Shown piece by piece: positions 3,497 through 48,472 of a stretch of DNA of 64,000 nucleotides. How positions within the stretch are numbered: position 1 is the first letter of the stretch; each line of letters opens with the position of its first letter. A model generated the notes under the pieces. It was not told where the DNA came from. It was given only the letters and a program-made list of their open reading frames with translations, and made no database searches. Source of the DNA: Acidobacteriota bacterium (lineage in GTDB: Bacteria > Acidobacteriota > Vicinamibacteria > Fen-336); contig WYBL01000151.1 of assembly GCA_011526565.1 (NCBI GenBank), positions 62,001 to 126,000 of the forward strand, read 5' to 3'. The translations under genes were made by a program, and so were the position numbers.

Positions 3497-3590
3497 CCAC
3501 CGAGCCCTCTTCAGTAGGCCAGCAGTTGGGTCCACTGACGCGGTGGGTGACGGCCGGGTGACAGTTTGTCGCCTAAGCGCGCGCGGGATC

Positions 3591-3667: not shown

Positions 3668-3806
3668 AGCGTGCGACGGGAGGGACTATAGCACGCCTCG
3701 CGCCCGGGCTGTGCCGCGGCGCCTTGACTGTGGCGCGGAAGCTGTTGACAATCCAGCCGCTTACGCACCCTTTCGGCCCGACGATCGACTCGCGGAGGTC
3801 AAAGCC

Positions 3807-4724: not shown

Positions 4725-4739
4725 CCGCGGCCGGCGCGG

Positions 4740-5324
4740 CTATTTCCGGCGCGCCGAGAGGATGGCCACCGGCGGCGTCAGCGCCTGTCCGTCCGCCGGG
4801 GCGCGCTGGATGCGGCGCACGACGTCGAGGCCGGCGACCACCCGCCCGAACGCCGCGAAGCCCTGGCCGTCGGGATTGCGGCGGCCGCCGAAGTCCAGCT
4901 CGGGCTGGTCGCCGATGCAGACGAAGAAGTCCGAGGTGGCGGTGTCCGGCGCGTCGCGTGCCATCGACACCGTGCCGTCGAGGTGGCGCAGCCCGGTCGC
5001 CGAGGTGCGCTCGAGCGGGATCGGCGGGAACGCCTCCGCCTCGCGGGACGCGGCCGCGCCGGCCTGCACGACCTCGATCTTCACCTTGTTCTGCGGCTGG
5101 TTGTCGGGGCGCACCGTGCGGTGGAAGCGACCGCCGTCGTAGTGGCCGGCATCGACGTAGCGCAGGAAGTTGCGGGCGGTCAGCGGCGCCGCTGCCGCGT
5201 CGACCTCGATCTCGATGCGGCCCTGTTCCGTCTCGAGCACCACGACCGGCAGCCCGCCGCCCTGCAGCGGCCCGGCAGCGCAGGCGAGGGCGAGGACGGC
5301 GAGCGCCCGGTGGCGGGACTTCAT
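4740..5324 (-). CDS. Exported peptidyl-prolyl cis-trans isomerase (cyclophilin type)
   Basis: This 194-residue protein has a signal peptide (MKSRHRALAVLALACAAGPLQGG) and a single cyclophilin domain. Recognisable elements are TARNFLRYVDAGHYDGGRFHR (substrate-binding Arg region), a GTVSMARD-like core and GFAAFGRVVAGLDVV near the end. Cyclophilins catalyse cis-trans isomerisation of X-Pro bonds; the signal peptide places this one in the periplasm. The ATG start overlaps the stop of the upstream ABC transporter gene (ATGA), so it is the last gene of a three-gene coupled operon. The link to the FHA-ABC transporter may mean a role in envelope protein folding, which is inference. Confidence 0.9.
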   Translation of the reverse strand: MKSRHRALAVLALACAAGPLQGGGLPVVVLETEQGRIEIEVDAAAAPLTARNFLRYVDAGHYDGGRFHRTVRPDNQPQNKVKIEVVQAGAAASREAEAFPPIPLERTSATGLRHLDGTVSMARDAPDTATSDFFVCIGDQPELDFGGRRNPDGQGFAAFGRVVAGLDVVRRIQRAPADGQALTPPVAILSARRK

Positions 5325-8173: not shown

Positions 8174-8331
8174 CGCGGCGGCCCGTAGAGCGCGTCGACG
8201 AGGCGGCGGAACCAGGCAGGCCGGGCGAGCACGACCCACGCCGCCGCCAGCGCCGTCAGCGGCACGGCGAAGGCCACGAGGTCCACGGCGAGGATGGTCG
8301 TCGCGATCAGGGCCCGATCGGCCAGCTTCAC
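8170..8331 (-). CDS. Small single-pass/hairpin membrane peptide coupled to the FHA-ABC gene
   Basis: A 53-residue peptide starts at GTG with GGGAG about 10 bases upstream. It is almost entirely hydrophobic: two membrane stretches (LIATTILAVDLVAFAVPL and ALAAAWVVLA) are followed by an amphipathic FRRLVDALYGPPR tail. Its stop overlaps the transporter start (ATGA). The size and coupling suggest a regulatory or stabilising subunit of the ABC transporter. No homologous family is recognised. Confidence 0.5.
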   Translation of the reverse strand: MKLADRALIATTILAVDLVAFAVPLTALAAAWVVLARPAWFRRLVDALYGPPR

Positions 8332-8402
8332 GTCCGTGTCTCCCTGGAGGCGCCCGCGGGCGGTGCGGGGATTGTAGTCGCGGGCCGTATCATGCGCGCT
8401 CG

Positions 8403-10199: not shown

Positions 10200-11446
10200 T
10201 GCGCGGCGGGCGGGGTCGGCGTCGCCGCCGGAGCGCCGGGAGCGCCCGGCTTCCACTTCGGGGGCGTGGGCACGGGCCGCGCCCCGGGCGGCGCGTCGCC
10301 GGCCAACGGAGCAGGTCCTGCGGGTGCCGCCGCGGGCGCGGGCGCCGTCCCGAACGGCGGGCGCCGGTAGAGCGAGCGCACGGAGACCGCGACGGGTTCG
10401 CCGGGGAAGCCGTCGAGGCCCGTGGCGCTGACCGCCGTGACCCGCAGCCAGACGTCTCCGAGGGCCAGCGGTTCGACTTGCAGCCGCGTGCCCTTGACGT
10501 CCACGTGCCGCGACAGCAGCCGCCCGCAGCCGGGGTCGCCGCAGGCCTCGACCACGTAGCGGGCCGCGTCGCCCACGACGTCCCAGGTGAGCACCGGATT
10601 CGAGTGATCCAGGATCGTTCCGGGCGCGGGCTCCGTGAGGCGCGGGCCCGGCAGCAGCTTCTCGGGCGGCGTCGGCGCCCCGTTCTCGGGAACCGTCGTG
10701 CCCATGCCGGGGTCGACGGAGACGGAGCGGCCCGCCGCCGCCACCTCGGCGCCGCCGTCGTACACCATGAACTGCGCCGTGCCCGTGGCGGTGCGGCGCG
10801 AGCGGCTGCGGTTGCCCGTTTCGGCACTGCGCCGCGCTTTCGCCTGGGCGCCGCCGATCACGATCTCGATCTCGCCCCCCGCGGCCGCCGCCGGAGCCTC
10901 GAGGTCGGCCTGGCCCTCGACGATCTCGAGAGATCGCCGCGGCGCGGCTTCCAGCCGGCCGCCGGTGTCGCGCAGGAAGACGACCGACTGCTCGGTGACG
11001 AAGAGCTGGGTCTGGTCCTCGAACTTGAGCAGCGCCGACGACCGCTCGTGAGTGCGCAGCCCGTCGCGCTCGCGCAGCAGGTCGCCGAGCTCGGCCGAGG
11101 TCCACGGCTCTGGGTAGGGCTTCTCCTCGACCTTCCGCGAGAGGGCCGCCAGCTCCGCCGTGCGCACCTTGCGCTTCACGACGATCCGCAGCTTCTGGCC
11201 CGGGCTCAACCGGTTCGGATCGGAGACGTCGGGGTTGAGCCGCCAGTTGTCGCGCCAGCCGGCGCTCGAGCCCAGGTACTTCTGGGTGATGCCCATCAGC
11301 GTCTCGCCGGCCACGACCGTGTGCCAGCCCAGCGTGTCGCCGGCGGTGCGCTCGGCGGGGTCCTGGCCCGCGGCCGGCACGGCGGCGAGGAGCGAGACGA
11401 GCCAGAGTCCGCGCAGCGTGGAAGACATGGAGCGATTGTGCCTCAT
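10196..11446 (-). CDS. Exported LysM / FecR-like domain protein
   Basis: This 416-residue protein has a signal peptide (LRGLWLVSLLAAVPAAGQ) and one LysM domain at about 45-95 (HTVVAGETLMGITQKYLGS...DPNRLSPGQKLRIV), which binds peptidoglycan glycans. A FecR-like beta domain follows (KFEDQTQLFVTEQSVVFLR), then a fibronectin-like segment (PVLTWDVVGDAARYVVE) and a Pro/Ala tail. The start overlapping the kinase stop (ATGA at 11446) was preferred; ATG 11428 would still leave a signal peptide. The gene closes a three-gene coupled operon with a response regulator and a membrane Ser/Thr kinase, so it may be a cell-wall-associated partner of that signalling pair. Confidence 0.8.
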   Translation of the reverse strand: MRHNRSMSSTLRGLWLVSLLAAVPAAGQDPAERTAGDTLGWHTVVAGETLMGITQKYLGSSAGWRDNWRLNPDVSDPNRLSPGQKLRIVVKRKVRTAELAALSRKVEEKPYPEPWTSAELGDLLRERDGLRTHERSSALLKFEDQTQLFVTEQSVVFLRDTGGRLEAAPRRSLEIVEGQADLEAPAAAAGGEIEIVIGGAQAKARRSAETGNRSRSRRTATGTAQFMVYDGGAEVAAAGRSVSVDPGMGTTVPENGAPTPPEKLLPGPRLTEPAPGTILDHSNPVLTWDVVGDAARYVVEACGDPGCGRLLSRHVDVKGTRLQVEPLALGDVWLRVTAVSATGLDGFPGEPVAVSVRSLYRRPPFGTAPAPAAAPAGPAPLAGDAPPGARPVPTPPKWKPGAPGAPAATPTPPAAH

Positions 11447-13404
11447 CGTTTGGAGGGGCCGGGCCGGATCGTCGTGCGCGGGCGCACCTGCGTCGCGAAC
11501 ACCCCGGCGCGCGTCTCGGCCGCGTGCCAGGGCGCCTCGGGAGTCGACGCGTCGGGCAGCCCGCCGAAGCGGAAGCCGTGGCGGGCGGCCAGCGCCTCGA
11601 ACTCGTCGGCCAGTTCGGCCGCGGAGCCCGGCCTCCGGGCCGAGCGGTCCTTGGCCAGCAGGCCCATCACCAGCGTCGCGAGGTCGTCGGGGACCTCGGG
11701 GCTGCGCCGCTGCGGTGGATCCGGCTCGCGGACCAGCGTGCGGTCGAACGACTCGGCCGGGGTGGCGGCGGCGAACGGCGACCAGCCGGTCAGGCCCTCG
11801 TAGAGCACGACGCCGAGCGCGAACAGGTCGGAGAGGCCGTCCTGGCCCTCGCCACGCAGCGCCTCGGGCGCCAGGTAGCCCGGGGTCCCGAACACGAGCC
11901 CCGCGTCTCGCGCGCGCTCGGAGATGTGGCCGGCGATGCCGAAGTCGGTCACCTTCACGGAGCCGTCGTGGGCGAGCAGCACGTTCGCGGGCTTGACGTC
12001 GCGGTGCAGCACGCCGCGCTCGTGGGCGGCCGCAAGCGCCCGCGCCACGCCGAGCCCGATCAGCGCCACGTCGCCCGGCGTGGGCCGCGGCGTGCGGTGC
12101 AGCCACCACTCGAAGCTGCGGCCCTCGACCAGCTCCATCGCGATGAAGGCGGCGTCGCCCACGTCCTCGACGTCGTGGATCGAGACGATGTTGGGGTGGT
12201 TGAACTGGGCGGCCGTGACGGCCTCGCGCAACAGCGTCGAGCGCTGCTCGCCGCGCACGACCTTGTCGAGCTCGGCGCCGAGGTGAATGGTCTTGAGCGC
12301 GACCGCCCGCTCGAGCCGCGGGTCCCAGCCGCGGAACACCGTGCCCATGCCGCCCGAGCCCAGCCGCTCGAGGACGAGGTAGCGGCCGAGGAACACCTCG
12401 CCCAGCGAGTCGCGGTCCTGAACCACCCGCTCCAGCGTGCGGAAGGACTCGGCGAGCTGCTCGATCTCGTCGCGGCCGCGCACCGCGGCGCCCGCCAGCT
12501 TCGCCTGGGCGGCCGCGAGCTGCCGCACGGGTCGGATCACGGTCCGCCAGGCGACGGCCGAGAACGCCATCGCCAGCGCCAGGGCCCCACCTACCGCCCA
12601 CAGCGAGCGCGCCCGCATCCGCTCGGCGACTTCTTCCGCGACCGCGACGGGCTGGCTCGACAGCACGAAGAAGGGAGTTCCCGTCACCGGTGCGTATGCG
12701 CCGAGCGCTCCGCCGCGCTCGTCTTCGAAGCGCGACGCGCCCGAGGTGTGGCCCGTGCGGCCCGCATCGACCAGCGTGTGCGGGAAGGAGGCGAGGCTCA
12801 GTCCGGGCTCGGAGGCGAGCAGCAGGTCGGGGCCCGGCCCGACGACCGCGAGCTGCGCCTCACGACCCAGTTCCTCGGTGGCCAGAACATCCTGCAGCGG
12901 TGAGGGGTCGGCGACCAGCAGCAGCTCGCCCGCGGCTGCCTCGAGCGGTAGCCGGATGCGCAGCCACGAGGCGCCCGTCGCTTCGACGACGGCCACGCTG
13001 GCCTCGGCGGGGGCGGACAGCACCGCGTCGACGATCGCCGACTGGCCGCGGGCCTGGGCGCGCACGACCTCTTCGCCGCCGGCGTTGACGATCGACGCGC
13101 CCGCGATCAGCGGCTGGGCGCGGAGCAGGCCGGCGAGCATCTCGCTGGCCGCAGCGCCGCGCGGATCGGCGAGCACCGCCGGGTTCATCGCCAGCGCGCG
13201 CCCGGGGCCGGACAGCGTCTCCAGGAAGGCGGACACGCGGGCCGCGGTGGAGCGCGCCGCGACCGCGTGGGTGCGCAGGACCTGGTCGCCGACCGCCTCG
13301 CGGTTGAGCGAGACGAGGTACGGGGCCACCAGCAGCGGCGCCAGTGCCGTGGCTGCCAGCGCACCGACCGTGCGTCCGAGCAGGCCCAGCGTCGGCCGCG
13401 TCAC
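11443..13404 (-). CDS. Membrane sensor Ser/Thr protein kinase (extracytoplasmic sensor-HAMP-kinase)
   Basis: This 653-residue protein has TM1 at about 12-32, an extracytoplasmic domain of about 240 residues resembling Cache-type sensors, TM2 at about 275-297 and a HAMP-like linker (IRPVRQLAAAQAKLAGAAVRG). A Hanks-type kinase domain follows from about 340, with GSGGMGTVF, the catalytic Lys in VALK, HRDVKPANVLL, DFGIAG and GTPGYLAPE. The topology is that of a histidine kinase with its output replaced by a Ser/Thr kinase. GTG 13404 overlaps the stop of the response-regulator gene (GTGA), and its own stop overlaps the LysM gene, so all three should be made together. The phosphorylation target is unknown; the receiver protein and the FHA transporter upstream are candidates by context only. 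Confidence 0.92.
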   Translation of the reverse strand: MTRPTLGLLGRTVGALAATALAPLLVAPYLVSLNREAVGDQVLRTHAVAARSTAARVSAFLETLSGPGRALAMNPAVLADPRGAAASEMLAGLLRAQPLIAGASIVNAGGEEVVRAQARGQSAIVDAVLSAPAEASVAVVEATGASWLRIRLPLEAAAGELLLVADPSPLQDVLATEELGREAQLAVVGPGPDLLLASEPGLSLASFPHTLVDAGRTGHTSGASRFEDERGGALGAYAPVTGTPFFVLSSQPVAVAEEVAERMRARSLWAVGGALALAMAFSAVAWRTVIRPVRQLAAAQAKLAGAAVRGRDEIEQLAESFRTLERVVQDRDSLGEVFLGRYLVLERLGSGGMGTVFRGWDPRLERAVALKTIHLGAELDKVVRGEQRSTLLREAVTAAQFNHPNIVSIHDVEDVGDAAFIAMELVEGRSFEWWLHRTPRPTPGDVALIGLGVARALAAAHERGVLHRDVKPANVLLAHDGSVKVTDFGIAGHISERARDAGLVFGTPGYLAPEALRGEGQDGLSDLFALGVVLYEGLTGWSPFAAATPAESFDRTLVREPDPPQRRSPEVPDDLATLVMGLLAKDRSARRPGSAAELADEFEALAARHGFRFGGLPDASTPEAPWHAAETRAGVFATQVRPRTTIRPGPSKR

Positions 13405-38604: not shown

Positions 38605-38678
38605 CGGGGCGTAGCGTAGCCTGGTAACGCGCCTGCTTTGGGAGCAGGAGTTCGAAGGTTCAAATCCTTCCGCCCCGA
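38605..38678 (+). tRNA. tRNA-Pro (anticodon TGG), integration site of the 9.8-kb element
   Basis: A full cloverleaf has acceptor CGGGGCG with CGCCCCG, anticodon loop TTTGGGA (TGG), T-stem GAAGG/CCTTC and discriminator A; CCA is not encoded. Its anticodon arm and part of the variable loop (38633-38654) recur at 48427-48448. The 5' half is therefore chromosomal, and the 3' half was supplied by the integrated element, which kept the gene functional. Confidence 0.95.
38633..38654 (+). repeat. attL core (22-bp direct repeat, copy 1)
   Basis: Starts CTGCTTTGGGAGCAGG and covers the anticodon arm and start of the variable region of tRNA-Pro. Identical to 48427-48448. Confidence 0.9.
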
Positions 38679-38717
38679 CAACCACTTACGAGCCATCGGC
38701 ACCCCCCGAAAACCTCT

Positions 38718-38741
38718 CCGGTAACCCGTTCGGTAACCCGG
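38718..38741 (+). repeat. Arm-like site, left copy (paired GGTAACCC)
   Basis: A 24-bp sequence of two GGTAACCC boxes whose starts are 12 bases apart, about 64 bp inside the left core. The identical 24-bp sequence occurs at 48275-48298. Paired short repeats at both ends of an integrating element are typical of integrase arm-type binding sites. Confidence 0.65.
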
Positions 38742-38866
38742 TCGCCCCCGGGTACCCCCGCCCACGGGTCGGCATGCCCTCGCGGCATCCATGCGCGGGC
38801 ATCCGCGCCACCCCGGCATCCATGCCCGGGACTCCATGCCCGAGAAGTCAGGCCCCGAGCGTTCCG

Positions 38867-38940
38867 AACGCGCAAGGTGGAGCCGGGCCAGCTTGCCCAA
38901 CGCGCAAGGTGGAGCCGGGCCAGCTTGCCCAACGCGCAAG
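38867..38940 (+). repeat. Tandem 32-bp repeat, two full copies plus 10 bases of a third
   Basis: Unit starting AACGCGCAAGGTGGAGCC occurs at 38867-38898 and 38899-38930 without mismatch, then AACGCGCAAG continues to 38940. It lies in the non-coding left end of the element. The role is unknown; iteron or protein-binding array is possible. Confidence 0.7.
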
Positions 38941-38941
38941 T

Positions 38942-38989
38942 GCTGACGAAGTGTCAGCGGCCCCCGGTAGGTGCTGACGATCCGTCAGC
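38942..38989. repeat. Two matching inverted repeats (GCTGAC-5-GTCAGC)
   Basis: Perfect 6-bp arms with 5-base loops at 38942-38958 and 38973-38989, starts 31 bp apart. No T-run follows on either strand, so these look more like twin operator sites than terminators. The nearest regulator is the LexA-like winged-helix protein encoded 1 kb away. Confidence 0.45.
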
Positions 38990-39120
38990 GCGAGCCCGCT
39001 TGCCGTCGGCAACCACGGGCCGGTATCTGATTGCCCCCGGCAAGCGGATGCCCGGGTAACACGTTGCACGGCCATCAACCGGCCGGCCGCTTGGCATCTC
39101 CACCAACCGCGGCCCCGCGG

Positions 39121-39468
39121 TCAGGGCCGGCGCCCCCGTCGAGCGGCAGCAGTCCGTCGGCGCCGGGCGCTCCGGGCCGCATCGTCGGGCACCTCGACGG
39201 GCCGGCGGTCGGTCGGCGCCGGCGGGCCCAGCGGCGCGCGGACGCTGGCGGCCGTGAGCGTCTCGCCCGTCCGCGCGTCGACCACGCACCAGGCCGTCAT
39301 GATCCGCCTCGAGGTCGCGCAGCGCAGGGAGCCGTCGCGGGTCACGACCAGCGCCAGGCCGTGGCAGCGGCAGCGGCGCTCCGGCCGGATCGCCGGCACC
39401 AGCTCGCGGCCTCCGAGCGCGGAGAGCACGGCCTCGAGCGGAACTACCTCGGGGTCGTCGGCCGCCAT
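39121..39468 (-). CDS. Hypothetical protein with cysteine pair, element end gene
   Basis: This 115-residue protein has no recognised family. The N-terminal part (PEVVPLEAVLSALGGRELVPAI) is helical. A small beta segment with three cysteines and a His follows (RRCRCHGLALVVTRDGSLRC), which could bind zinc, then a VVDARTGETL strand pair and a very basic C-terminus (RSARRRRTAAARRGRRP) that may contact nucleic acid. It is the last gene of the leftward operon; its start overlaps the upstream small gene by 25 bases. Confidence 0.45.
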   Translation of the reverse strand: MAADDPEVVPLEAVLSALGGRELVPAIRPERRCRCHGLALVVTRDGSLRCATSRRIMTAWCVVDARTGETLTAASVRAPLGPPAPTDRRPVEVPDDAARSARRRRTAAARRGRRP

Positions 39469-39635
39469 CGTCGCCAGGTGAGCCCAGCGGCAGCACGCCG
39501 CGCGTAGCCGCCGAGCGCCGCAGCGACCCGATCAGCGCGCTCCAGGCCCGGCGCCCGCCGCGCAGCGTCGCCCGCTGGCGCGCGATCGTCGACGCGCTCG
39601 GCCGCGTGGTCGTCTTGCTCGCGAGCGGCCGTCAC
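39444..39635 (-). CDS. Small hypothetical protein of the element
   Basis: A 63-residue ORF begins at a GTG that overlaps the upstream stop (GTGA). It is charged and helical (EQDDHAAERVDDRAPAGDAARRAPGLERADRVAAALGGYARR). Overlap coupling on one side and a 25-base overlap on the other support translation, but composition alone would not. No function can be assigned. Confidence 0.35.
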   Translation of the reverse strand: MTAAREQDDHAAERVDDRAPAGDAARRAPGLERADRVAAALGGYARRAAAGLTWRRWRPTTPR

Positions 39636-39934
39636 GCGGCGCCCTGGCGCGTCCGCAGCGTCTCGACGGCCGCACCGACCGCAGAGAGTGCTCGCGCGCC
39701 GGTCAAGCAGCACGACGACTCCACGCGCAGGGTTGCCAGCGCCAGCCCGAGCACGAGCGCTTCCCACGGGTTCGCCGGCGATGGCCAGGTGGCGCGAGGG
39801 TAGCGCAGCAGGTCCCGCGCGGCGTGTAGCGCGTCGGGCAGGTCCCCGGGGTCGTGGCCTGTCGGCAGCTCGTCGCCGAGCACCGCCAGCGCCCGGCGGG
39901 CCAGGTCGGCCGGAGTCGAGCGCGTCGCGCTCAA
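39632..39934 (-). CDS. Hypothetical helical protein of the element
   Basis: A 100-residue protein starts at TTG overlapping the stop of the LexA-like gene (TTGA). It is all-alpha by appearance (TPADLARRALAVLGDELPTG...ALHAARDLLRYPRATWP...WEALVLGLALATLRVESSCCLTGARALSAVGAAVETL), with a hydrophobic central helix. Its coupling to the winged-helix regulator suggests a related role, but no family is recognised. Confidence 0.5.
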   Translation of the reverse strand: MSATRSTPADLARRALAVLGDELPTGHDPGDLPDALHAARDLLRYPRATWPSPANPWEALVLGLALATLRVESSCCLTGARALSAVGAAVETLRTRQGAA

Positions 39935-40158
39935 CGGTCGCCCCCGCGGTCGATCACCAGCCCGGTCGGCGATGCGCTCCGCAGCAGCCCGCGGTCGGCC
40001 AGCGCGCGCAAGTGCGCTTGCACGGTCGAATGGTGAAGGTTGAGCCGTCTTGCGATCAGCGTAGCCGGCGGAGCCTCGCCCACCAGCTCGACGTGGGCGC
40101 GGATCAAGTCCAGCACCTCGCGCTGTCGCGGAGACAAGGTGCTGTGGTCGTCGTGCAT
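39931..40158 (-). CDS. LexA-type winged-helix DNA-binding protein (no protease domain)
   Basis: This 75-residue protein reads LSPRQREVLDLIRAHVELVGEAPPATLIARRLNLHHSTVQAHLRALADRGLL, matching the LexA N-terminal DNA-binding domain helix for helix. It stops before any S24 autoprotease domain would begin. An unusually complete ribosome-binding sequence, GAGGTGATCC, precedes the ATG, implying efficient translation. Such a free winged-helix domain would act as a repressor or antirepressor partner in the element's switch. The adjacent upstream gene encodes a HExxH protein, an arrangement recalling ImmR/ImmA pairs of integrative elements, though the repressor fold differs. Confidence 0.8.
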   Translation of the reverse strand: MHDDHSTLSPRQREVLDLIRAHVELVGEAPPATLIARRLNLHHSTVQAHLRALADRGLLRSASPTGLVIDRGGDR

Positions 40159-40241
40159 CGGATCACCTCGTGGTCGGTAGAGCCGCGGGCCGGGTGCGTC
40201 CCGGCTTTCGCCGCGCGGCGCGGCGCCCCTGTCAGAGAGAC

Positions 40242-41075
40242 TCAGCCGTACATCGCCGTGAGCCGGCGCGCGTCCGCTTGCCACGCCTCGCGCCCGGGCG
40301 CTGCGTTCTCCATCGGCCTGGCGCCCCACGCCAGCGCGAGCGCGTCGGCTCGGTGCTCGCGGTCGTCGGAACGCTCGAGGTAGGCCCGCATCCGCTCCGG
40401 GTTCTGCGCAGCGCCGAGCAGCGCCGCGCCCGTCAGGTTCGCGGCATGAGCGGGGCTCGGCAGCTCGGCCGGATCGGGCTCGAGCCAGCCGTGAGCGCTC
40501 TCGTGCAGAACGAGGTCGCGGAACCCGATCGGGTCGCGCTCGGAGCCGTCGAGCAGGATCACGACGCGGGCCGCCGCCGGCAGCGCCACGCGCATGCACC
40601 AGCCGCGCGCCGTCCAGCCCACCGAAGCGAACAGCGCAGTCTTCAGCAGGTAGTCGCCGGCCGGCGGCGCGATGCCGAGCAGCGCGTCGAGCGTCAACGT
40701 CCGGGCCTCCTCGCAGCCGATGAACGCCAGGTTGCGCACCAGGTCGTCAGCGGATGGCGCCGTCGCCCCCGCGCTGTACCAGTCGCGCAGCCGCTGGCGG
40801 GCCGCCGCGGTCGCCACGAGCGGCGCCGCCAGCCACGGCGCGCCCACGTCGAGCCCGAGTGCGAGCGCGAGCAGGCGCCGCTGCTCAGCCGGCGCGGTCG
40901 CTCGTGCGGCCAGCGCGCGCCAGGCGTCGGCCGAGTCGAGCGCGTGCGGGCCGTACTGCGCTCGCGGCCAGCCCTCCGCCTCGGCGACGGCCAGCAGCCC
41001 GCGCTGCTCGTCGGAGAGCCAGGAAACGGCCGGGGTCGACGGCGCGACGCCGCCGGCCCCGTCGTGGTCTGTCAC
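40242..41075 (-). CDS. HExxH metallopeptidase-like protein (ImmA/IrrE-like motif)
   Basis: This 277-residue protein has a mostly helical N-terminal half with no known family. The C-terminal half contains LVLHESAHGWLEP (HExxH zinc motif, about residue 190) followed about 45 residues later by DDREHRADALALAWG, whose Glu and Ala-Asp fit the third zinc ligand region of gluzincin/ImmA-type peptidases (ExxAD-like). GTG start overlaps the upstream stop (GTGA). ImmA proteins cut the repressor that silences a mobile element; the next gene here is a DNA-binding protein of LexA type, so the same logic is possible. Alternatives are a phage maturation protease or cell-wall peptidase. Confidence 0.55.
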   Translation of the reverse strand: MTDHDGAGGVAPSTPAVSWLSDEQRGLLAVAEAEGWPRAQYGPHALDSADAWRALAARATAPAEQRRLLALALGLDVGAPWLAAPLVATAAARQRLRDWYSAGATAPSADDLVRNLAFIGCEEARTLTLDALLGIAPPAGDYLLKTALFASVGWTARGWCMRVALPAAARVVILLDGSERDPIGFRDLVLHESAHGWLEPDPAELPSPAHAANLTGAALLGAAQNPERMRAYLERSDDREHRADALALAWGARPMENAAPGREAWQADARRLTAMYG

Positions 41076-41476
41076 CGCTTCGCCAGCGCGTCCAGGCTCG
41101 CCGCGATCCGCTCGAGCAACTGCTCGACGCGCGCGGGCCGGGCCGCCTCGTAGGCGCGGCGCTCGGCCTCGGCCTGCGCCCGCTCGGCCGCCTCGATCGC
41201 GAGCAGCTCGGAGTCCGGGCCCGCGGCCTGGCGCTCGCGCTCCGCGGCCTGCGCGGCCTCCCGCTCGGCCGCGGCCTCGAGGATCGCGAGGCGGTCGCTC
41301 ACCTCCTTCGCCTGCTCGCGAGTCCAGGTCGTCGCCCCGAGTCGCCAGGCCTGCTCGCCCGCCGACGTCGACGCGCCCGTCAAGATGCCCGGAGACAGCT
41401 CCGGCCAGCCCGCGCGCTGCGCGCGCTCCATCAGCGCGGCCGCGCCCGCGTTCGTCATTGCGTTCATTGGGTTCAT
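41072..41476 (-). CDS. Coiled-coil hypothetical protein of the element
   Basis: This 134-residue protein has residues 50-134 dominated by a long charged helix rich in Glu, Ala and Arg (REQAKEVSDRLAILEAAAE...AQAEAERRAYEAARPARVEQLLERIAASLDALAKR). Such helices occur in phage scaffolding proteins and capsid-size redirecting factors of satellites, but no homology is recognised. GAGGAG lies directly before the first ATG, at better distance (9 bases) from the in-frame ATG at 41467, which may be the true start. Its stop overlaps the HExxH gene start. Confidence 0.55.
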   Translation of the reverse strand: MNPMNAMTNAGAAALMERAQRAGWPELSPGILTGASTSAGEQAWRLGATTWTREQAKEVSDRLAILEAAAEREAAQAAERERQAAGPDSELLAIEAAERAQAEAERRAYEAARPARVEQLLERIAASLDALAKR

Positions 41477-41522
41477 CTCCTCGTGTTAGCCGACGCCACC
41501 GCGGCGCCGGGTCCGGCCCTCG

Positions 41523-41873
41523 TTATTCGCCGCGCAGGATCTCGCGCAGCAGCGACACCGCCGACACCCACGGCGATGGTTCGACCATGGGTAAGCCTTC
41601 GGCGTGCGCGATCCGATGCAGCGCTTGCCTCAGTGCACGCCGCGCCTTGTCCCGTGGCGATACGGGCGCCTTCCCGCGCGAGTAGCAGCGCCAGGAGCTC
41701 GCCCGCAACTCGTCGGCGATCTGGCCGGGGTCGACATCGCGCACGGCCTCGCGCGTCACGCCCGCCTCTTTCAGCTCCTCACCGAGGATCGACTGCGCAC
41801 GCACGAACAGGCCCGGCGTCATCACGCGCAACTTGGTCCAGGCGTCGCAGTCCGGCAGCTCGGCCGCCGTCAC
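41523..41873 (-). CDS. Hypothetical protein of the element
   Basis: A 116-residue ORF starts at GTG overlapping the upstream stop (GTGA). It is helical and mixed-charge (AWTKLRVMTPGLFVRAQSILGEELKEAGVTREAVRDVDP, then a basic helix RDKARRALRQALHRIAHAEG). It looks like a real soluble protein by composition. No family is recognised; it lies just downstream of the putative TerS and a 97-aa protein, where satellites often carry packaging or capsid-interference genes. Confidence 0.5.
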   Translation of the reverse strand: MTAAELPDCDAWTKLRVMTPGLFVRAQSILGEELKEAGVTREAVRDVDPGQIADELRASSWRCYSRGKAPVSPRDKARRALRQALHRIAHAEGLPMVEPSPWVSAVSLLREILRGE

Positions 41874-42163
41874 GCGGCCTCCGGGCCGCCCTGGCGCTCG
41901 GCCTCGAGCGCGGCGACGCGGGCGGCCAGGTCGTCGACGCGATGCGCAAACCCATGGGCCAGGGTCGCGCTCAATGCCAGGTCGCGCGCGGCGAACTCGG
42001 CCCGCCAGCCGCAGCGCGAGCACTCCGCCTTGCTCGGCTCGGGCGTGCGCGCCATCGCCGCCACGACCGCGTCCACCTCGGCCCGCAGCGTCGCCAGCGG
42101 ATCGGGCCGCAGCCCACGCGCGAACCCACGCCCCACGGCGCCGAACGTCGTCTCCTTGCTCAC
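41870..42163 (-). CDS. Hypothetical protein with CxxC and C-terminal coiled coil
   Basis: A 97-residue protein starts at GTG overlapping the terminase small subunit stop (GTGA). The middle has a CSRCGWRAEF motif (single CxxC, possible zinc pairing in a dimer). The C-terminal 35 residues form a helix with heptad-like spacing (FAHRVDDLAARVAALEAERQ). No family is recognised. Tight coupling to TerS makes a packaging-related role worth testing. Confidence 0.5.
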   Translation of the reverse strand: MSKETTFGAVGRGFARGLRPDPLATLRAEVDAVVAAMARTPEPSKAECSRCGWRAEFAARDLALSATLAHGFAHRVDDLAARVAALEAERQGGPEAA

Positions 42164-42675
42164 TTCTCCACCTCCTGCGATTCGGCGCCATCAGCGGGCG
42201 CCAGCCACTCCGCGAGGCTCGTCAGCGCCGCGCGGAGCTCCTCCGTCAGCCGGACGTAGACGCGGCCCTCGTCGGGCTCGGCCGCCAGCTCCGCGGCGAT
42301 GCGGGCCGGGACGTTGAGCAGGGCTTCGCGGATCACGCGAGCGGCCTCGAAGCCCTGGCGCCGCGCGGCGAACAGCTCGATCAACTCGCCGCGGCGAACG
42401 CGCAGCGCCAGCTCCGCGGCATCGGCCCGCGCGGCCGTCCACCGCCGCTGTTCGTCGGCAAGGCTCGCGGTCTTGCCCGCGGACGCCGCCCGCAACTCGC
42501 GCCGAGCCAGAGCCGGGTCCGCGATGAACGGCCGGCCCTTGGCGTCCCGGCCGACCGACTGCGCGATCCGGCCCTCGGCCACCGCTCGCGAGATCCACGA
42601 GTGCGACACGTCGCACGCCTCCGCGAACGCCCTCAGGCTCAGCCGGCCCTCGGCCTTGCGGCCTCTACTGGTCAC
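42160..42675 (-). CDS. terS: Terminase small subunit, Nu1-like (putative)
   Basis: This 171-residue protein has an N-terminal winged helix-turn-helix (LSLRAFAEACDVSHSWISRAVAEGRI). A segment with the gpNu1-family pattern follows: RRWTAARADAAELALRVRRGELI, then VIREALLNVPARIAAELA, and a C-terminal helical region. In lambda, gpNu1 binds cos DNA through the HTH and recruits the large terminase through its C-terminus. No large terminase gene is in the element, as in PICI satellites whose TerS redirects a helper phage's packaging motor. GTG start lies 3 bases after the preceding stop. An unrelated HTH regulator is the main alternative. Confidence 0.7.
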   Translation of the reverse strand: MTSRGRKAEGRLSLRAFAEACDVSHSWISRAVAEGRIAQSVGRDAKGRPFIADPALARRELRAASAGKTASLADEQRRWTAARADAAELALRVRRGELIELFAARRQGFEAARVIREALLNVPARIAAELAAEPDEGRVYVRLTEELRAALTSLAEWLAPADGAESQEVEK

Positions 42676-42678
42676 CGG

Positions 42679-43146
42679 TCACCACCTTTCGACCCCGACA
42701 TCTAACGAGAAATCGCCGAGGGGAGGCCCCGCTCGCGCCAGGTCGCAGGAGGACCCACGGCGCCCCCCCCTCCCCGCGCCCCCCACCTGGCGCGCCGGGT
42801 CGGCGCAGGTCGGAGACGCGCCACAGCGCCCGGGGTCGCGGTCGTCGACGGCGGCCTGTGTGCTGCGGGCCGCCTGCTCGGCTGCGCGTGGCAGCGCGGC
42901 GTCGCCACCGTGCGCGGTCGCGCCGCTCCGGTCAGCCGCCAGCACCGGGCCGGGGTCGCAGCCTCGCGCACCAGTAGCCAGCAGCACCAGCGCGCCCAAC
43001 GCCTGCGCCACCCGCCCGAGCCGGACCGCGTACACCTCGCCTGCCAAGACGGCCCCGTGGAGTGCGGCCCCCGCACCCCCGCCCCCCGGCGCGAGCACCC
43101 CCGCGGCCTGCAAGGCCCCCCAGGGTCCGCGGCAGGCGGCGGTCAC
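42679..43146 (-). CDS. Hypothetical protein with a hydrophobic segment
   Basis: A 155-residue ORF starts at GTG that overlaps the helicase stop (GTGA). The first half has an Ala/Leu/Val-rich stretch (VAQALGALVLLATGARGC) that could span the membrane, and the second half is polar and low in structure. A small membrane protein between replication and packaging genes could be a lysis or exclusion factor, but the composition is also compatible with a spurious frame in GC-rich DNA. Confidence 0.4.
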   Translation of the reverse strand: MTAACRGPWGALQAAGVLAPGGGGAGAALHGAVLAGEVYAVRLGRVAQALGALVLLATGARGCDPGPVLAADRSGATAHGGDAALPRAAEQAARSTQAAVDDRDPGRCGASPTCADPARQVGGAGRGGRRGSSCDLARAGPPLGDFSLDVGVERW

Positions 43147-44462
43147 TCGTCGCCCTCGTCGTGCGATTCGAACCGCGCGCACGCTGCACGCCAGCGGACG
43201 GGCACGCTCCCTGTCCAGCCGTTGCGCTGCTTCGCGATCAGCACCTCAGCGGCGCCGTCCTGGATCGCGTCGACAGAGTCGGCCTGATGGATCAGCAGGG
43301 CCACGTCGGCGTCCTGCTCGACGGCGCCGGAGTCCCTGAACATCGAGAGGCTCGGCCGCTCCGGCTTGCCCGGCTGCGCGCTCTGGCGGTTGAGCTGAAC
43401 CGCCGTCAACACCGGGATGTTCAAGTCCATGGCCAGCGCCTTGAGCCCCTGGCTCGTGGCCGTGGTCCGCTCGTACAGCGACCTTGCCTTGGGGTCGTGG
43501 ATCAACCCGAGGTAGTCAACAACCAGCACGTCAAGACCATGCCGGGCCTTGTGGCGCCGGGCCGCGGCGCGGATCTGCGCCAGCGTGCGCACGTGCGGCG
43601 CCGCGAAGTAGAGCGCGCGCGAGAGGATCGGCGTCGACTCGGCCAGGCGATCGAGCGCGCGCTCGCGTTCGTCGGCGCGCCAGTAGTGCAGGCCGGCGAG
43701 GGACACCCCGGAATGCGCGAGCAGGCGCCGCGCCTGTAGCTCCTCCGCGCCCATCTCGAGGGTCACGCAGAGCACCGACTTCCCGGCCGCGGCCGCGGCC
43801 TCGCCGAAGCCGAGCAGAAGCGCGCTCTTGCCGCGCGACGTGCGAGCGCCGACCGCAACGAGCTGGCCAGGTCGCCAGCCGCCAGCCCGCAGCCGCCGAT
43901 CCAGGTCGGGCAGGCCGGAGCTGACGCCGACTGCGCGGCCCTGAATCTCGGCCTCGAGGGTCGCCCAAGTCGACGCCGCGACGGCGGCCAGGTCGAGCAC
44001 GGCGGGCGATGCCGGCGCCGCCCCGTCGAGCAGTCGCTCAACGCCCGCGCGCAGGTCGTCGGGTGCGGCATCGCCGGAGTCGGCCTGCTCGGCCAGGGCC
44101 CGCAGCGACTCAGCCATGCGCCGGCAGGCGCCGTGCCGTGCGACTCGGCGCGCCCACTCGACGGCCGCCGACTCGGCGACGACGGGCACACCGTCGAGCA
44201 AGCCGGCGATGTAGGCGACGCCCCCGGCCGCCTCGAGCTGGGCCGCCTGCGCCAGCTCGGCGCGCAGGGTCATGAGGTCGAGCGAACGGTCGGCGTCGGC
44301 GAGTTGAAGCAGCGTCCGGTAGACGATGCGATGCCCGGGCCGGGCGAAGTCATCGGCGGTCAGGTGGTCAGCGACGGCGCCGAGCAGCGCCGGCGCGGTC
44401 AGCACAGCGCCCAGCAGCGCCCGCTCGGTTTCGATCGCGGCCGAGTCGCGGTTGCTGGTCAT
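43143..44462 (-). CDS. dnaB: Replicative DNA helicase, DnaB type (phage-like)
   Basis: This 439-residue protein has an N-terminal DnaB helical domain (AIETERALLGAVLTAPALLGAVADHLTADDF...) and a RecA-like ATPase domain from about 170: Walker A GARTSRGKSAL, LCVTLEMGAEELQARRLLAHSG, Walker B VLVVDYLGLI, then NIPVLTAVQLNRQ and FRDSGAVEQDADVALLIH. DnaB helicases unwind DNA at the fork as hexamers loaded by an initiator. It lies 3 bases after the replication-protein gene, matching the lambda O-P / phage rep-helicase order. This means the element probably replicates autonomously after excision. Confidence 0.93.
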   Translation of the reverse strand: MTSNRDSAAIETERALLGAVLTAPALLGAVADHLTADDFARPGHRIVYRTLLQLADADRSLDLMTLRAELAQAAQLEAAGGVAYIAGLLDGVPVVAESAAVEWARRVARHGACRRMAESLRALAEQADSGDAAPDDLRAGVERLLDGAAPASPAVLDLAAVAASTWATLEAEIQGRAVGVSSGLPDLDRRLRAGGWRPGQLVAVGARTSRGKSALLLGFGEAAAAAGKSVLCVTLEMGAEELQARRLLAHSGVSLAGLHYWRADERERALDRLAESTPILSRALYFAAPHVRTLAQIRAAARRHKARHGLDVLVVDYLGLIHDPKARSLYERTTATSQGLKALAMDLNIPVLTAVQLNRQSAQPGKPERPSLSMFRDSGAVEQDADVALLIHQADSVDAIQDGAAEVLIAKQRNGWTGSVPVRWRAACARFESHDEGDE

Positions 44463-44465
44463 GCT

Positions 44466-45209
44466 CTACACCCGCTCCTTGCGCCGGCCGAAGAACTGCG
44501 GGCCCGTCGGCTCCGGCTCCGGCTTGACGTTCGGCGTCGGCGCCGGCCGCCAGTCGCCGAACGTGGCAGCGAACCGCGGCGCGCTGGCGAACCGCGCCTC
44601 CGTCGCCGCGAGGTAGCGTTGCCAAGCCGGGCGCACCGTCTCCCATCCGTGCGCCTTGACCAGCGGCGCCAGGGCCTTGCCGATCTGGCCACCGGGCGCC
44701 GTGCCGCCATCGAAGCGAGCGGCCCAGTCGTCGACGGCCTGAGTGCTCCAGGGCGCGACCCGCGAGCTTGCTCGCGAGGATCCGTTTCTCTCTTCTCTCT
44801 TCTGTGTTACGCGTAACACCGGCTTGTTACGCGTAACAGCTCCGCCCCCGTCGTGCTTCTTCCGGTAGTCGCGCATGTACGGCGCCCTGGAGCCCTGCTT
44901 TTCCTGCGCCCGCTCGCGATAGACCGCGTAGTTCAGGATCTGCCACCCGCCCGGGATCGGTGCCAGTCGGCGGCCCTCGTGGTCCGGGGTCCGCGAGTCG
45001 GGGTCAGGGCCGCAGAACTTCGCCAGCGCGGCCCGCATCTGGTCGTCGGTCACTCGGCACAGGTTGGCGAGGCCCGGAACCGAGCCCTCGACGCGGCCGT
45101 GAGCGTCGGCCAGGGCAAGGAGTGCGATCCACACGCGGACTGTGGCGTGGTCCTCGCACCAGACGGAGCTGGTCACGATCGACGAGAACAACTTGGTCCA
45201 GCCGCTCAC
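44466..45209 (-). CDS. Phage-type replication initiator (replisome-organiser-like)
   Basis: This 247-residue protein has an N-terminus SGWTKLFSSIVTSSVWCEDHATVRVWIALLALADAHGRVEGSVPGLANLCRVTDDQMRAALAKF, typical of phage replication proteins with a winged-helix origin-binding domain. A basic linker (RAPYMRDYRKKHDGGG) follows, then a C-terminal helical domain (WETVRPAWQRYLAATEAR) that would contact the helicase. The linker is encoded by DNA with two 14-bp palindromes (44805-44838), so the gene may contain its own origin, as lambda O does. GTG start overlaps the upstream stop (GTGA). Confidence 0.8.
   Translation of the reverse strand: MSGWTKLFSSIVTSSVWCEDHATVRVWIALLALADAHGRVEGSVPGLANLCRVTDDQMRAALAKFCGPDPDSRTPDHEGRRLAPIPGGWQILNYAVYRERAQEKQGSRAPYMRDYRKKHDGGGAVTRNKPVLRVTQKREERNGSSRASSRVAPWSTQAVDDWAARFDGGTAPGGQIGKALAPLVKAHGWETVRPAWQRYLAATEARFASAPRFAATFGDWRPAPTPNVKPEPEPTGPQFFGRRKERV
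44785..44838. other. Candidate replication origin inside the initiator gene
   Basis: Two identical 14-bp palindromes, TGTTACGCGTAACA, at 44805-44818 and 44825-44838 have starts exactly 20 bp apart (two helical turns). They lie next to a pyrimidine tract (TTTCTCTCTTCTCTCTTCT, 44784-44802), the least GC-rich stretch of the gene. Iterons in the middle of an initiator gene beside an easily melted tract is the lambda-type ori layout. Confidence 0.5.
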
Positions 45210-45595
45210 GCGCGCGCCTCGAGTCTCCAGGCGACGCGCGGGCCGGAGCGGTCGCTACCGTCGCGGAGTCGCGCCTCCCGCTCGACGGCGCGCCGGAGCC
45301 GGCCGCGGGTGACGTGGCGCAGTACCTCGAGCAGGTCGTCGTCGACCAGCGACAGCGGGACGCGCGACGACCACGGGAGCCGGCGGATCGGCGAGGGCGG
45401 GATGCGCGGCCAGGTGCGGGCGCTCACGCGGCACCTCGAGCCAGCGCTACCAGCTCGCGGACGTGGCCCACTGGGCTCGAGCAGCAGGTTGTTCTCGACG
45501 TCGACCACGCCCTGCGCTACGCTGTCGTTGATCTCGTCGTGCTGTTCCGCCGCGGCGCCCCTGGCAGGGCCCGCGGCGGGCGTGTTTCTGCTCAC
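45206..45595 (-). CDS. Hypothetical basic protein of the element
   Basis: A 129-residue ORF starts at GTG overlapping the upstream stop (GTGA) and ends overlapping the initiator start. The second half is the better-looking part: PLSLVDDDLLEVLRHVTRGRLRRAVEREARLRDG, a basic helical domain. An internal GTG near 45425 could be the real start, leaving a 73-residue protein. No family is recognised. Confidence 0.4.
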   Translation of the reverse strand: MSRNTPAAGPARGAAAEQHDEINDSVAQGVVDVENNLLLEPSGPRPRAGSAGSRCRVSARTWPRIPPSPIRRLPWSSRVPLSLVDDDLLEVLRHVTRGRLRRAVEREARLRDGSDRSGPRVAWRLEARA

Positions 45596-45810
45596 GACTT
45601 GCGGCCCCCCGCCTCGCGCACCGCGGCACACAAAGCACCGGCGCCGACGTAGACCAGCGCTGACCGCATCTCCTCGGCTCGGGCCGGGAGGTCGCCGAGC
45701 ACTTCGCACACCAGCGCCTCGGCCGCGTCGTCATCGTCCGCGGCGTGCAGGGCGACGCGCTCCGCCAGGCGGCCGAGCCGCTCGAGGGTCGCGGCGTCCG
45801 GGGGGGTCAT
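45592..45810 (-). CDS. Small acidic helical protein of the element
   Basis: A 72-residue protein starts at ATG overlapping the AlpA-like stop (ATGA). It is helical and acidic (PPDAATLERLGRLAERVALHAADDDDAAEALVCEVLGDLPARAEEMRSALVYVGAGALCAAVREAGG). Its position after alpA and before replication genes is where satellites carry small regulators. No family is recognised. Confidence 0.5.
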   Translation of the reverse strand: MTPPDAATLERLGRLAERVALHAADDDDAAEALVCEVLGDLPARAEEMRSALVYVGAGALCAAVREAGGRKS

Positions 45811-46034
45811 GCGGCCTCCGAACTGCTGACGACGGGCCGGGACTCCAGCCAGCACAACACCTCGGCGCGGACCCACGCCTTGCCGCGGCGACCGATCCGC
45901 CGTGCAGCGGGGAAGCGACCCTCTCGCTCCAGCAGGTAGCGCCACGCCCGCGACAGGCCCGTGAGCCTGGCAACCTCGGCCTCGCGGATGAAGTAGGCGG
46001 CCGGTCCGTCGCCGCCGCTGCCCTGTCGTCCCAT
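45807..46034 (-). CDS. alpA: AlpA-family helix-turn-helix regulator / excisionase-like
   Basis: This 75-residue protein reads YFIREAEVARLTGLSRAWRYLLEREGRFPAARRIGRRGKAWVRAEVLCWLESRP, the MerR-like winged helix of AlpA/excisionase proteins (FLRLKEVxxxTGLSRSTIY...FPxxxxLGxRxVGWxxxEVxxWL pattern). In P4-like satellites and Gram-negative PICIs AlpA activates excision and element genes. GGGAGGG lies 5 bases before the ATG. It is the first gene after a 96-base gap holding repeated sequences, so it likely begins the early transcript. Confidence 0.85.
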   Translation of the reverse strand: MGRQGSGGDGPAAYFIREAEVARLTGLSRAWRYLLEREGRFPAARRIGRRGKAWVRAEVLCWLESRPVVSSSEAA

Positions 46035-46139
46035 CGGTCCCTCCCGCGGCAGGCCGTCTAGGCCCGCCGTCTGGAGAGACTGTCGTCTAGGGACGCCTAG
46101 GCCCGTGGTAGCGCAAATCCGCGGGTTCGCCTATTTGCG
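46035..46139 (-). promoter_or_regulatory. Gap upstream of alpA with repeats, probable control region
   Basis: CTAGGCCCG occurs at 46059 and 46098, with a further GTCTAGGG between them. A 7-bp inverted repeat (CGCAAAT, 46112-46118, with ATTTGCG, 46133-46139) overlaps the end of the upstream gene. It is the only sizeable gap between the integrase end and the helicase, so a promoter and operator for the alpA-replication transcript are expected here. No clear -35/-10 pair is seen. Confidence 0.4.
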
Positions 46140-46790
46140 TGCGACGCGCACGACTCGCACGCCCGCGGCTTCCGCCTCGCGCAGCGTCTCGGGCGATATG
46201 TAGGCCTCGGCCTGGCGCTGCGCGTACTCGGCCGGCGCGCGGTCCGCCGTGCGCTTCACGAGCCGCCAGAGGTCGCCGGGCACCGGCTCGCCCATCTGGT
46301 CGAGAAGCTCCGCCAGCGTCGCGCACAGCAGGCCGTCGCGACTCTTCTTGACGGGCAGGCCGGCCGCGAGCAGCTCAAGCGCGACGTCGGCCGCGAAGCG
46401 CTCGCGCCAGCGCGGCGGCCGACGCCCTCGCAGTCCAGGCGTCACCTTCACGGCGCCCACGCGCTGCCGGATCTCGCGCAGCGCCTCGCGCCAAGGACCG
46501 ACGCCGCCCGCATTCGCCGCGAGCCCAGGGAACGCGAGCAGGAACCGCGACGCCGTTTCGTCTAGAGCGTCGTCCAAGGTGGCGAGCGCGCTTTGGACCT
46601 TGGGCAGTCTCGCGACCAGCGCAGCGCGATCCGGCCGGTCAGCCTCGAAGCGGTCGGCCCATCCTCGCCGCTCGCCACCGCGCGCGTAGAGCGCGGCCAG
46701 GCCTGCCAGTCGGTTGAGCGTGCGGCGCGGCAAGTCGAAAGCACGCAACGTGCTCGCTGCGAGCTTGCGCGCGGCCGGCGAGAGCTTCAC
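46131..46790 (-). CDS. Hypothetical protein coupled to the integrase
   Basis: This 219-residue protein starts at GTG overlapping the integrase stop (GTGA). It is largely helical: a tract around RKLAASTLRAFDLPRRTLNRLAGLAALYA, a central FLLAFPGLAANAGGVGPWREALREIRQRVG, and a basic GLRGRRPPRWRERFAADVALELLAAGL. It ends in VRVVRVARK. It may assist recombination or control excision, given coupling, but no known domain is recognised. Confidence 0.55.
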   Translation of the reverse strand: MKLSPAARKLAASTLRAFDLPRRTLNRLAGLAALYARGGERRGWADRFEADRPDRAALVARLPKVQSALATLDDALDETASRFLLAFPGLAANAGGVGPWREALREIRQRVGAVKVTPGLRGRRPPRWRERFAADVALELLAAGLPVKKSRDGLLCATLAELLDQMGEPVPGDLWRLVKRTADRAPAEYAQRQAEAYISPETLREAEAAGVRVVRVARK

Positions 46791-48187
46791 TTCGCCCACG
46801 CGAGGACCTTCCCCTTCTCCGGCGCGCCGGGCGTCTTGAGGATGCGGCGCAGCTCGGCGTCCCATGCCGTCATCGCGGCCACGCGCTCGGGCCACAGCTC
46901 GGAGCGGTCATAGATCAGGGTCGCCGCGGCGACGCCGTTGCCCGCGGTCGCTGCGTGGCCGAGCAGCCGGGACACGACGTCGAGCCGCACGCCCAGCTCT
47001 CGCAACTTGGTCGCGACGGTCCGCCGGAGGTCGTGCGGCGTCCAAGGGTCGGCCTTCGCGCTCGCCTTCTTCTTCCGCTTCGCCCCGCCATCGTCGAGCC
47101 GCTCGATCGCGCGGCGCAGCGCCATCATCAGCCGGCCCCCGCGCAGCTCGTAGTAGTCGGGGAACAGTCTGCCCTTCTTGTTCGGCATCGCCTGCAACGT
47201 CTCGACGATCAGCGTCGGCAGCGGTACGTCCAGGTCCGGCGCCGGACCCTTGCGCTTGCCGCGGGTGGCCTTGCCTTTGCGGTTCGAGGCCGGGACCGTC
47301 CACACGGCGCGCTCGAGGTCGAATTGGTCCCACGTCGCCGCGGCCGTCTCGCCGCGGCGCGTGCCGCAGCAGAGCAGCAGCCGCCAGAACGCGCGGGGAA
47401 CCGGAGAGAGCTTCTCGGTCGCGGCCCACAGGTGCTGGATCTCGTCATCGGTCAGCACGCGGGCCCGCGGCGCCTCGTCCGTCAACGGCTTCATCTGTGA
47501 CACGAGGTCGAACGGCAGGCGGTCCTCCGCGACGGCCCAGCGCGACGCCGCGCGCAGGAACTCCATCACGCGGTTGCCCATCACGCCGCCGATGCGGGCG
47601 AGGTCGTCGCGCAACTCGTAGCGCTTCAGCTCGGCGACCGGCCGCAACGTCGTCGTGAGACGGACGGTCCGCGCCCGACGCCGCTTGCCCTCGCTCGCTT
47701 CCGGCTCGGGCCCGATGTAGGCGTTCAGCATCCGAGTTCGTTCGTCGCGCGTGCGCTCCGCCCACCGGCCGCCCTGATTCTCGATGTACGCCGCGGCCGC
47801 CGCCGCCAGCGTCTCCTGGCGCTGGCGCTGTTCTTCGTCGGCCCGGGCCCGCAGCGCTTCGGCCTCGGCCTGGCGCTCGGCCTCCCGTGCGGCGATCGGG
47901 TCGCCGCCCCCGCGTCGGATCTTGCGTTGCTCGGCCGCGGCGATCCGCGCATCCGCGAGTGACATGCCGCCGCGGCCCTCGCGGCACTCGCCGAGCACCA
48001 GCAGCCGCTTGACGTCCGAGCCAGGAAGGCGGAAGCGATAGACCCAGGTGCGCCCCCCGGCGCTGGACACTCGGAGCGCGAGCCCGCTTTCCTTCCCCGG
48101 CCCGGCATCGAAGTAGAAGTCGCGTTCGCGGCCGGGTCGCGGCTTCGCTGACTTCGCCCACTCCCACGTCATGCGCTTCGCTGGCAT
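46787..48187 (-). CDS. int: Tyrosine recombinase / integrase (P4-type)
   Basis: This 466-residue protein has an N-terminal DUF4102-like arm-binding domain (KESGLALRVSSAGGRTWVYRFRLPG...LGECREGRGGMSLADARIAAAE), a helical core-binding domain (about 150-270) and a catalytic domain. The catalytic residues are Arg in CCGTRRGETAAATW, HxxR in HDLRRTVATKL, the second His in RLLGHAA and nucleophile Tyr in LIYDRSELW. Start ATG 48187 has GGGAGG 7 bases upstream; a longer open frame to 48334 covers repeat DNA and is not used. The gene sits beside attR and reads inward. It should catalyse integration into tRNA-Pro. Confidence 0.96.
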   Translation of the reverse strand: MPAKRMTWEWAKSAKPRPGRERDFYFDAGPGKESGLALRVSSAGGRTWVYRFRLPGSDVKRLLVLGECREGRGGMSLADARIAAAEQRKIRRGGGDPIAAREAERQAEAEALRARADEEQRQRQETLAAAAAAYIENQGGRWAERTRDERTRMLNAYIGPEPEASEGKRRRARTVRLTTTLRPVAELKRYELRDDLARIGGVMGNRVMEFLRAASRWAVAEDRLPFDLVSQMKPLTDEAPRARVLTDDEIQHLWAATEKLSPVPRAFWRLLLCCGTRRGETAAATWDQFDLERAVWTVPASNRKGKATRGKRKGPAPDLDVPLPTLIVETLQAMPNKKGRLFPDYYELRGGRLMMALRRAIERLDDGGAKRKKKASAKADPWTPHDLRRTVATKLRELGVRLDVVSRLLGHAATAGNGVAAATLIYDRSELWPERVAAMTAWDAELRRILKTPGAPEKGKVLAWAK

Positions 48188-48201
48188 CGCCCTACCTCCC
48201 G

Positions 48202-48224
48202 CCGGGTTACCGGACCGGGTTACC
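48202..48224 (-). repeat. Arm-like site, inverted copy (paired GGTAACCC)
   Basis: Read on the minus strand it gives GGTAACCCGG twice, starts 13 bases apart. It is 15 bases upstream of the int start codon. Confidence 0.55.
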
Positions 48225-48274
48225 AGCGCCGGAGAACTCCTGCTTCGAGGAGCGGCGTCTCCTGCTCCGCGGTT

Positions 48275-48298
48275 CCGGTAACCCGTTCGGTAACCCGG
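48275..48298 (+). repeat. Arm-like site, right copy (paired GGTAACCC)
   Basis: Identical over 24 bp to 38718-38741 and in the same orientation, about 129 bp inside the right core. Confidence 0.65.
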
Positions 48299-48426
48299 AG
48301 AAGGGTAGCACCCCTTACCTCGGTTGACCAGCATTTACGCAACAGAATCGGTCACAAGCCACGAAGAGAGAGTCAGTTACGAGGAATGTTCAGGACGGAC
48401 GCGAGCTTGCCGAAAAGTGCCAGAAA

Positions 48427-48472
48427 CTGCTTTGGGAGCAGGAGTTCGCTGGTTCAAATCCAGCCGCCCCGA
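48427..48472 (+). repeat. attR: 22-bp core plus displaced 3' remnant of the original tRNA-Pro
   Basis: 48427-48448 is identical to the left core. The bases that follow continue as a tRNA 3' half up to the discriminator at 48472, but with T-stem GCTGG/CCAGC where the intact gene has GAAGG/CCTTC. No 5' half precedes it, so this is a remnant and not a tRNA gene. Confidence 0.88.

Follow-up and report, generated by a model that had tools for sequence, protein, structure and literature searches.

Most known phage satellites come from Firmicutes and Gammaproteobacteria, and phage-inducible chromosomal islands (PICIs) average 9.5 kb (PMC10803314). In known PICIs, terS or an isolated capsid homologue may be present, and such a homologue gives rise to small capsids in SaPIbov5 (PMC6092414). 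A survey of acidobacterial genomes from 2018 went no further than noting that prophages without virion genes could be satellites (PMC5900883). We found no description of an acidobacterial satellite in the open literature searched, although one elsewhere is possible. We analyzed a stretch of 64 kb from an Acidobacteriota genome (the window) and found an island of 9.8 kb that is probably a PICI-like satellite representing a new lineage within this phylum. Its size, compared with the PICI mean, was counted as support for this reading.

The initial annotation had described a 9.8-kb block in tRNA-Pro(TGG) bounded by perfect 22-bp repeats. ARAGORN, the repeats and two empty sites bore this out. The spacing of the repeats gives the island a length of 9,794 bp, and each repeat is part of a 56-bp stretch that is 86% alike at the two ends. 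The uninterrupted site is present in two genomes of the same genus; the flanks are 98% identical and overlap in one tRNA copy in G001, and they are 82-85% identical in G002. The empty-site sequence corresponds to the attR side, and the attL side departs from it at paired positions of the T-arm. Since the attL changes are paired and attR matches the empty site, the island brought a new, working 3' half of the tRNA. It inserted into the gene and restored it. The short repeat CGGTAACCCG occurs five times in the 64 kb, every copy at the island ends (0.05 expected), and these copies are probably the arm sites of the integrase. An integrase with a specific attachment site, a PICI feature, is thus represented by the flanking repeats, the arm sites and the empty sites. 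The pair of GCTGACG-N3-CGTCAGC dyads near attL is a possible operator. The features are listed in Table 1.

Table 1. Features of the island and its insertion site (positions in the window)
Feature	Position	Strand	Evidence or remark
tRNA-Pro(TGG)	38605..38679	+	3' half island-derived; ARAGORN, empty-site comparison
attL core, 22 bp	38633..38654		repeat search and empty-site comparison
Two CGGTAACCCG repeats near attL	38719..38740		candidate integrase arm sites
32-bp unit, 2.3 perfect tandem copies, just inside attL	38867..38940		TRF
Two GCTGACG-N3-CGTCAGC dyads	38942..38989		tandem placement; count over whole window not above chance
orf16, 115 aa	39121..39468	-	gene call
orf15, 100 aa, tentative	39632..39934	-	ORF only
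LexA-type DNA-binding protein, 75 aa, no protease domain	39931..40158	-	PF01726 3.9e-13
orf13, 277 aa, HExxH protein	40242..41075	-	homologue in G099 TerS island, E 4.4e-20 and alignment
orf12, 134 aa, Glu/Ala-rich	41072..41476	-	4-nt overlap with orf13
orf11, 116 aa	41523..41873	-	gene call
orf10, 97 aa	41870..42163	-	gene call
Terminase small subunit, Nu1-like	42160..42675	-	phrog_57 (PHROG 57) 4e-22; best viral homologue 46% identical
dnaB/terS gap, 467 bp, no convincing gene	42676..43142	-	candidate packaging-site region
GGTCCTCCTGCGA, candidate cos-like site	42743..42755	-	likeness to TTAGGTTCTCCGCCGA upstream of related phage terminases
DnaB-like helicase	43143..44462	-	PF03796 4.7e-54
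Rep, 247 aa, predicted winged-helix N-terminus	44466..45209	-	strong homologues in compact islands only; structure
orf5, 73 aa	45206..45427	-	70% identity over 60 aa to same-place protein of G002 island
orf4, 72 aa	45592..45810	-	gene call
AlpA-like regulator / excisionase	45807..46034	-	PF05930 2.7e-12; phrog_2790 3.4e-14
orf2, 222 aa	46131..46799	-	start overlaps integrase end; weak match in G002 island
Tyrosine integrase, 466 aa	46787..48187	-	PF00589 1.5e-15; PF13356 3.8e-11; phrog_1 3e-51
Three CGGTAACCCG repeats near attR	48203..48297		candidate integrase arm sites
attR core, 22 bp	48427..48448		displaced native tRNA 3' end next; repeat search and empty-site comparison

In the genome of the window, the tRNA-Pro(CGG) site, which is used by another island (L105) in G001, also seems filled, by a different insert seen at the ends of contigs G000:C163 (L132 from 8940) and G000:C62 (L131 from 7293). 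This site looks like an integration hotspot.

The genes lie on the minus strand in the order integrase, orf2, AlpA, orf4, orf5, Rep, DnaB, a 467-bp gap, TerS, orf10 to orf13, the LexA-type protein, orf15 and orf16. The integrase had been called intact, which the PF00589 and PF13356 domains confirmed; its length of 515 aa was not upheld, the most likely start giving 466 aa. The AlpA-like regulator, the DnaB helicase and the Nu1-like TerS proposed initially were recovered by the PF05930, PF03796 and phrog_57 profiles, and AlpA represents the AlpA- or Stl-type regulator typical of PICIs. The name of the replication protein comes only from a weak match (phrog_2514, 0.012) and a predicted winged helix. 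Foldseek comparison of Rep with the PDB gave no significant match, and VIA-align revealed a winged helix only. The replication module consists of Rep and DnaB, not pri-rep; the origin was not located.

We searched the island proteins for virion and packaging families with profiles. None of the proteins matched a TerL, portal, capsid or tail family. If the integrase and DnaB are set aside, the largest called gene encodes 277 aa, which rules out a normal-sized TerL or portal; the reported absence of these genes therefore held. The island thus has terS without TerL or portal, a PICI feature, and lacks the TerL, portal and capsid genes of a capsid-forming PICI and the TerL, portal, capsid and tail genes of a complete prophage. 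It is highly improbable that the island is a capsid-forming satellite whose capsid genes have diverged beyond recognition. Two relatives (L105 and L103) do carry capsid proteins, but these are 480-495 aa long, whereas the late genes of the island encode at most 277 aa, and a TerL or portal needs at least 400 aa. The same searches matched no relaxase, and no P4-like psu, sid, delta or alpha primase family was matched with the general rather than dedicated profiles used. The lack of a relaxase match bears on another explanation, in which an integrative element is moved by general transduction or conjugation and keeps terS for regulation. TerS has a DNA-binding domain, and mobility does not require a satellite cycle. 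However, a replication module of its own together with terS is satellite cargo (PMC6092414), and we regard this explanation as very unlikely.

Most of the late genes had no homologue in the searches made. Pfam, NCBIfam and PADLOC added nothing for the unnamed genes, and the suggestion that some of them have defence functions was not sustained, as PADLOC gave no credible defence gene. The exception was orf13, for which 396 genomes of the phylum were searched in addition to the 193 genomes of the class used for all families. One homologue was found among the 193 class genomes, in G099, the genome that also holds the best phrog_57 match. The SprT-like match of this homologue was weak (0.01). Single-sequence and profile scans of viral contigs with orf13 gave no match, and an AlphaFold model built from two sequences was unusable (pLDDT 40). 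The G099 island is split over two contigs, each with a near-perfect 48-bp tRNA-Lys repeat, and contains an integrase, an HTH protein, a primase, the orf13 homologue and, across the contig gap, a TerS homologue without TerL after it.

The initial annotation had proposed looking for the same gene order at other tRNA loci, and the early module was indeed found in compact islands in different tRNA genes. The genes of these relatives, all in draft MAGs, were called by a simple codon-usage script. L105 (G001; 8.8 kb) lies in tRNA-Pro(CGG) with a 48-bp repeat and encodes an integrase, a 199-aa protein, an AlpA-like HTH protein, Rep, a Terminase_7 TerS and a capsid protein, without TerL. L103 (G152; 8.8 kb), in tRNA-Lys, encodes an integrase, a 204-aa protein, an HTH protein, Rep and a capsid protein. 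L107 (G009; 10.8 kb), in tRNA-Cys with a 46-bp repeat, encodes an integrase, an HTH protein, Rep, DnaB and TerL. L104 (G001), cut by a contig end, has integrase, HTH, Rep and DnaB genes with tape-measure-like and protease genes, and L116 (G002) has an integrase, orf2 (weak), an HTH protein, orf5 (70%), Rep and DnaB. These compact islands, several of them at tRNA genes with direct repeats (8.8-10.8 kb), have a common integrase-AlpA-Rep(-DnaB) module, with TerS and capsid, capsid, or TerL as cargo. Since either terS or an isolated capsid homologue is found in known PICIs, the contents of L105 and L103 fit a known strategy. An island with TerL only, such as L107, is in our judgement less usual. 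For a Rep gene near tRNA-Gly in G095 (L106) no repeat was detected, and this locus was left out of the verified islands. Homologues of orf5 and orf13, and the strong homologues of Rep, were confined to compact islands, in few cases. Comparison of L104 with L116 gave a dN of 0.18 and a dS of 0.75 for DnaB (dN/dS about 0.24). For orf5, dN was 0.12 and dS 0.57 over 35 codons (ratio about 0.2). These ratios indicate that the family genes are under selective constraint.

Phages offered a second comparison. A single-sequence scan of viral contigs with TerS gave no match; a profile built from the TerS of the window and of G099 detected 19 loci in IMG/VR. A GpA-type TerL followed TerS within about 260 bp in all 19, usually with a portal gene, whereas TerL is absent after TerS in the window and G099 islands. 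TerS also adjoins TerL in the class prophages of G145, G031, G014 and G124. One locus from the genome scan (L084) was rejected as a false hit in host genes. The host assembly (93% complete) yielded no GpA-type TerL, and this was counted against the satellite reading. In the G145 prophage the order is dnaB, gap, terS, TerL and portal, so part of the layout of the island could derive from such a phage. This order would also suit a deleted or decayed prophage, that is, a GpA-type siphophage that lost everything after terS and kept its integrase, replication genes and terS by chance. We consider this unlikely. The reading frames are open, and the family members bear signs of selective constraint. 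The DnaB of the window is 37-41% identical to those of other islands, compared with 31.5% to that of the G145 prophage; the replication genes are nearest to other compact islands and TerS is nearest to phages. This mosaic, with a shared early module and differing phage parts, argues against simple decay. So do the occurrence of the early module in several comparably sized islands at different tRNA genes and the combination of orf13 with TerS in an island of another family (G099). Moreover, no full prophage sharing the island genes was found among the 193 genomes of Vicinamibacteria. The satellite reading, already preferred to decay in the initial annotation, was therefore supported on both counts, with no TerL, portal or capsid hidden among the unnamed genes and no prophage of the class sharing the block.

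In lambda, cos adjoins terS. We considered a gene in the gap before terS (42676-43142) and rejected it for want of convincing coding. Exact copies of the motif TTAGGTTCTYCGCC are present in G145, G129, L063 and L064, in the first three some 100-150 bp upstream of TerS. Six IMG/VR contigs have a longer form, and two of them also encode a GpA-type terminase. At the matching place, the gap of the island has GGTCCTCCTGCGA, preceded by a G-run, as a degenerate version of this motif (unfitted p about 0.06); the relaxed pattern that makes GGTCCTCCTGCGA unique within the window was chosen after seeing it. The fold of this stretch was nothing unusual (z -0.5). The likeness is suggestive only, and we treat GGTCCTCCTGCGA as a lead to a cos-like site rather than a finding. 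Separately, TTAGGTTCTCCGCC(GA) is conserved in L058 (9547-9560), L059 (2135-2148), L063 (883-896), L064 (6947-6960) and L121-L126, in some phage loci directly upstream of GpA-type terminase genes. It is probably the cosN of that phage lineage.

Other loci were noticed during the searches. L059 (G129:C80, 1-8300) has TerS with an exact cos-like motif, a DnaB-N/RepA-like fusion and an AbiU2-like HEPN gene, and no TerL in the 1.4 kb between TerS and the contig end; it is possibly a further satellite with a defence gene. L082 (Acidiphilium sp. PA, 922-12140) has an HTH gene, a primase-like gene, a tape measure, a capsid gene and TerS beside tRNA-Pro(GGG), with no recognised TerL or portal. L118 (IMG/VR 3300016457_000429) is a 10.2-kb contig in which 51-bp tRNA-Pro(GGG) repeats enclose an integrase, an AlpA-like gene and, as judged by eye, TerL, a protease-capsid fusion and a portal. 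It looks like a complete capsid-forming satellite.

For the satellite reading, we infer that the island is induced and excised, is packaged with the TerL of a helper and interferes with that helper. In response to helper infection or to induction, AlpA would activate the island and assist the integrase in its excision at the 22-bp core. Judging from the protein families, Rep would then load the DnaB of the island and the circle would replicate. The Nu1-like TerS would bind the island at a packaging site, which may lie in the 467-bp gap, and pair with the GpA-type TerL of the helper, so that helper heads would be filled with island DNA. More speculatively, the late genes, including those for the HExxH protein and the LexA-type repressor, might regulate or interfere with the helper.

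We tentatively propose, as a possibility still short of probable, that these islands belong to an undescribed Acidobacteriota satellite family that uses various tRNA genes and whose members differ in the one or two helper packaging or capsid parts that they carry. The backbone would comprise the integrase, the small protein after it, AlpA, the winged-helix Rep and often DnaB, and the cargo a Nu1-like TerS, a TerS of another family with a capsid protein, a capsid protein, or TerL alone. If so, satellites within a single genus would divert different helpers and would act at different steps. A backbone shared in a phylum dominant in soil, with interchangeable packaging parts, would extend the known range of satellites. 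Such islands would also make it possible to compare, in natural examples, how packaging is redirected by each stolen part.

Lambda-type (Nu1/GpA) prophages, such as that of G145 (G145:C112), resemble the island in the dnaB-gap-terS order and the terminase family, but have the TerL and virion genes that it lacks. Capsid-forming PICIs, whose plan is seen in L118, have in common with it the integrase, AlpA and the attachment site, and differ in having TerL, portal and capsid genes. SaPI-type PICIs with TerS are alike in using a satellite TerS without TerL; the island differs from them in phylum and in having no recognised Stl-type repressor and no pri-rep. The Gram-negative PICIs (EcCICFT073 and PmCI172; PMC6092414) are alike in the integrase, AlpA, a replication module, a specific attachment site and a size of about 10 kb, and sometimes carry terS, as the island does, or a lone capsid homologue. 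Those described in that work are all from Gammaproteobacteria and have pri-rep, whereas the island described here belongs to Acidobacteriota and combines a winged-helix Rep and DnaB with a Nu1-like TerS.
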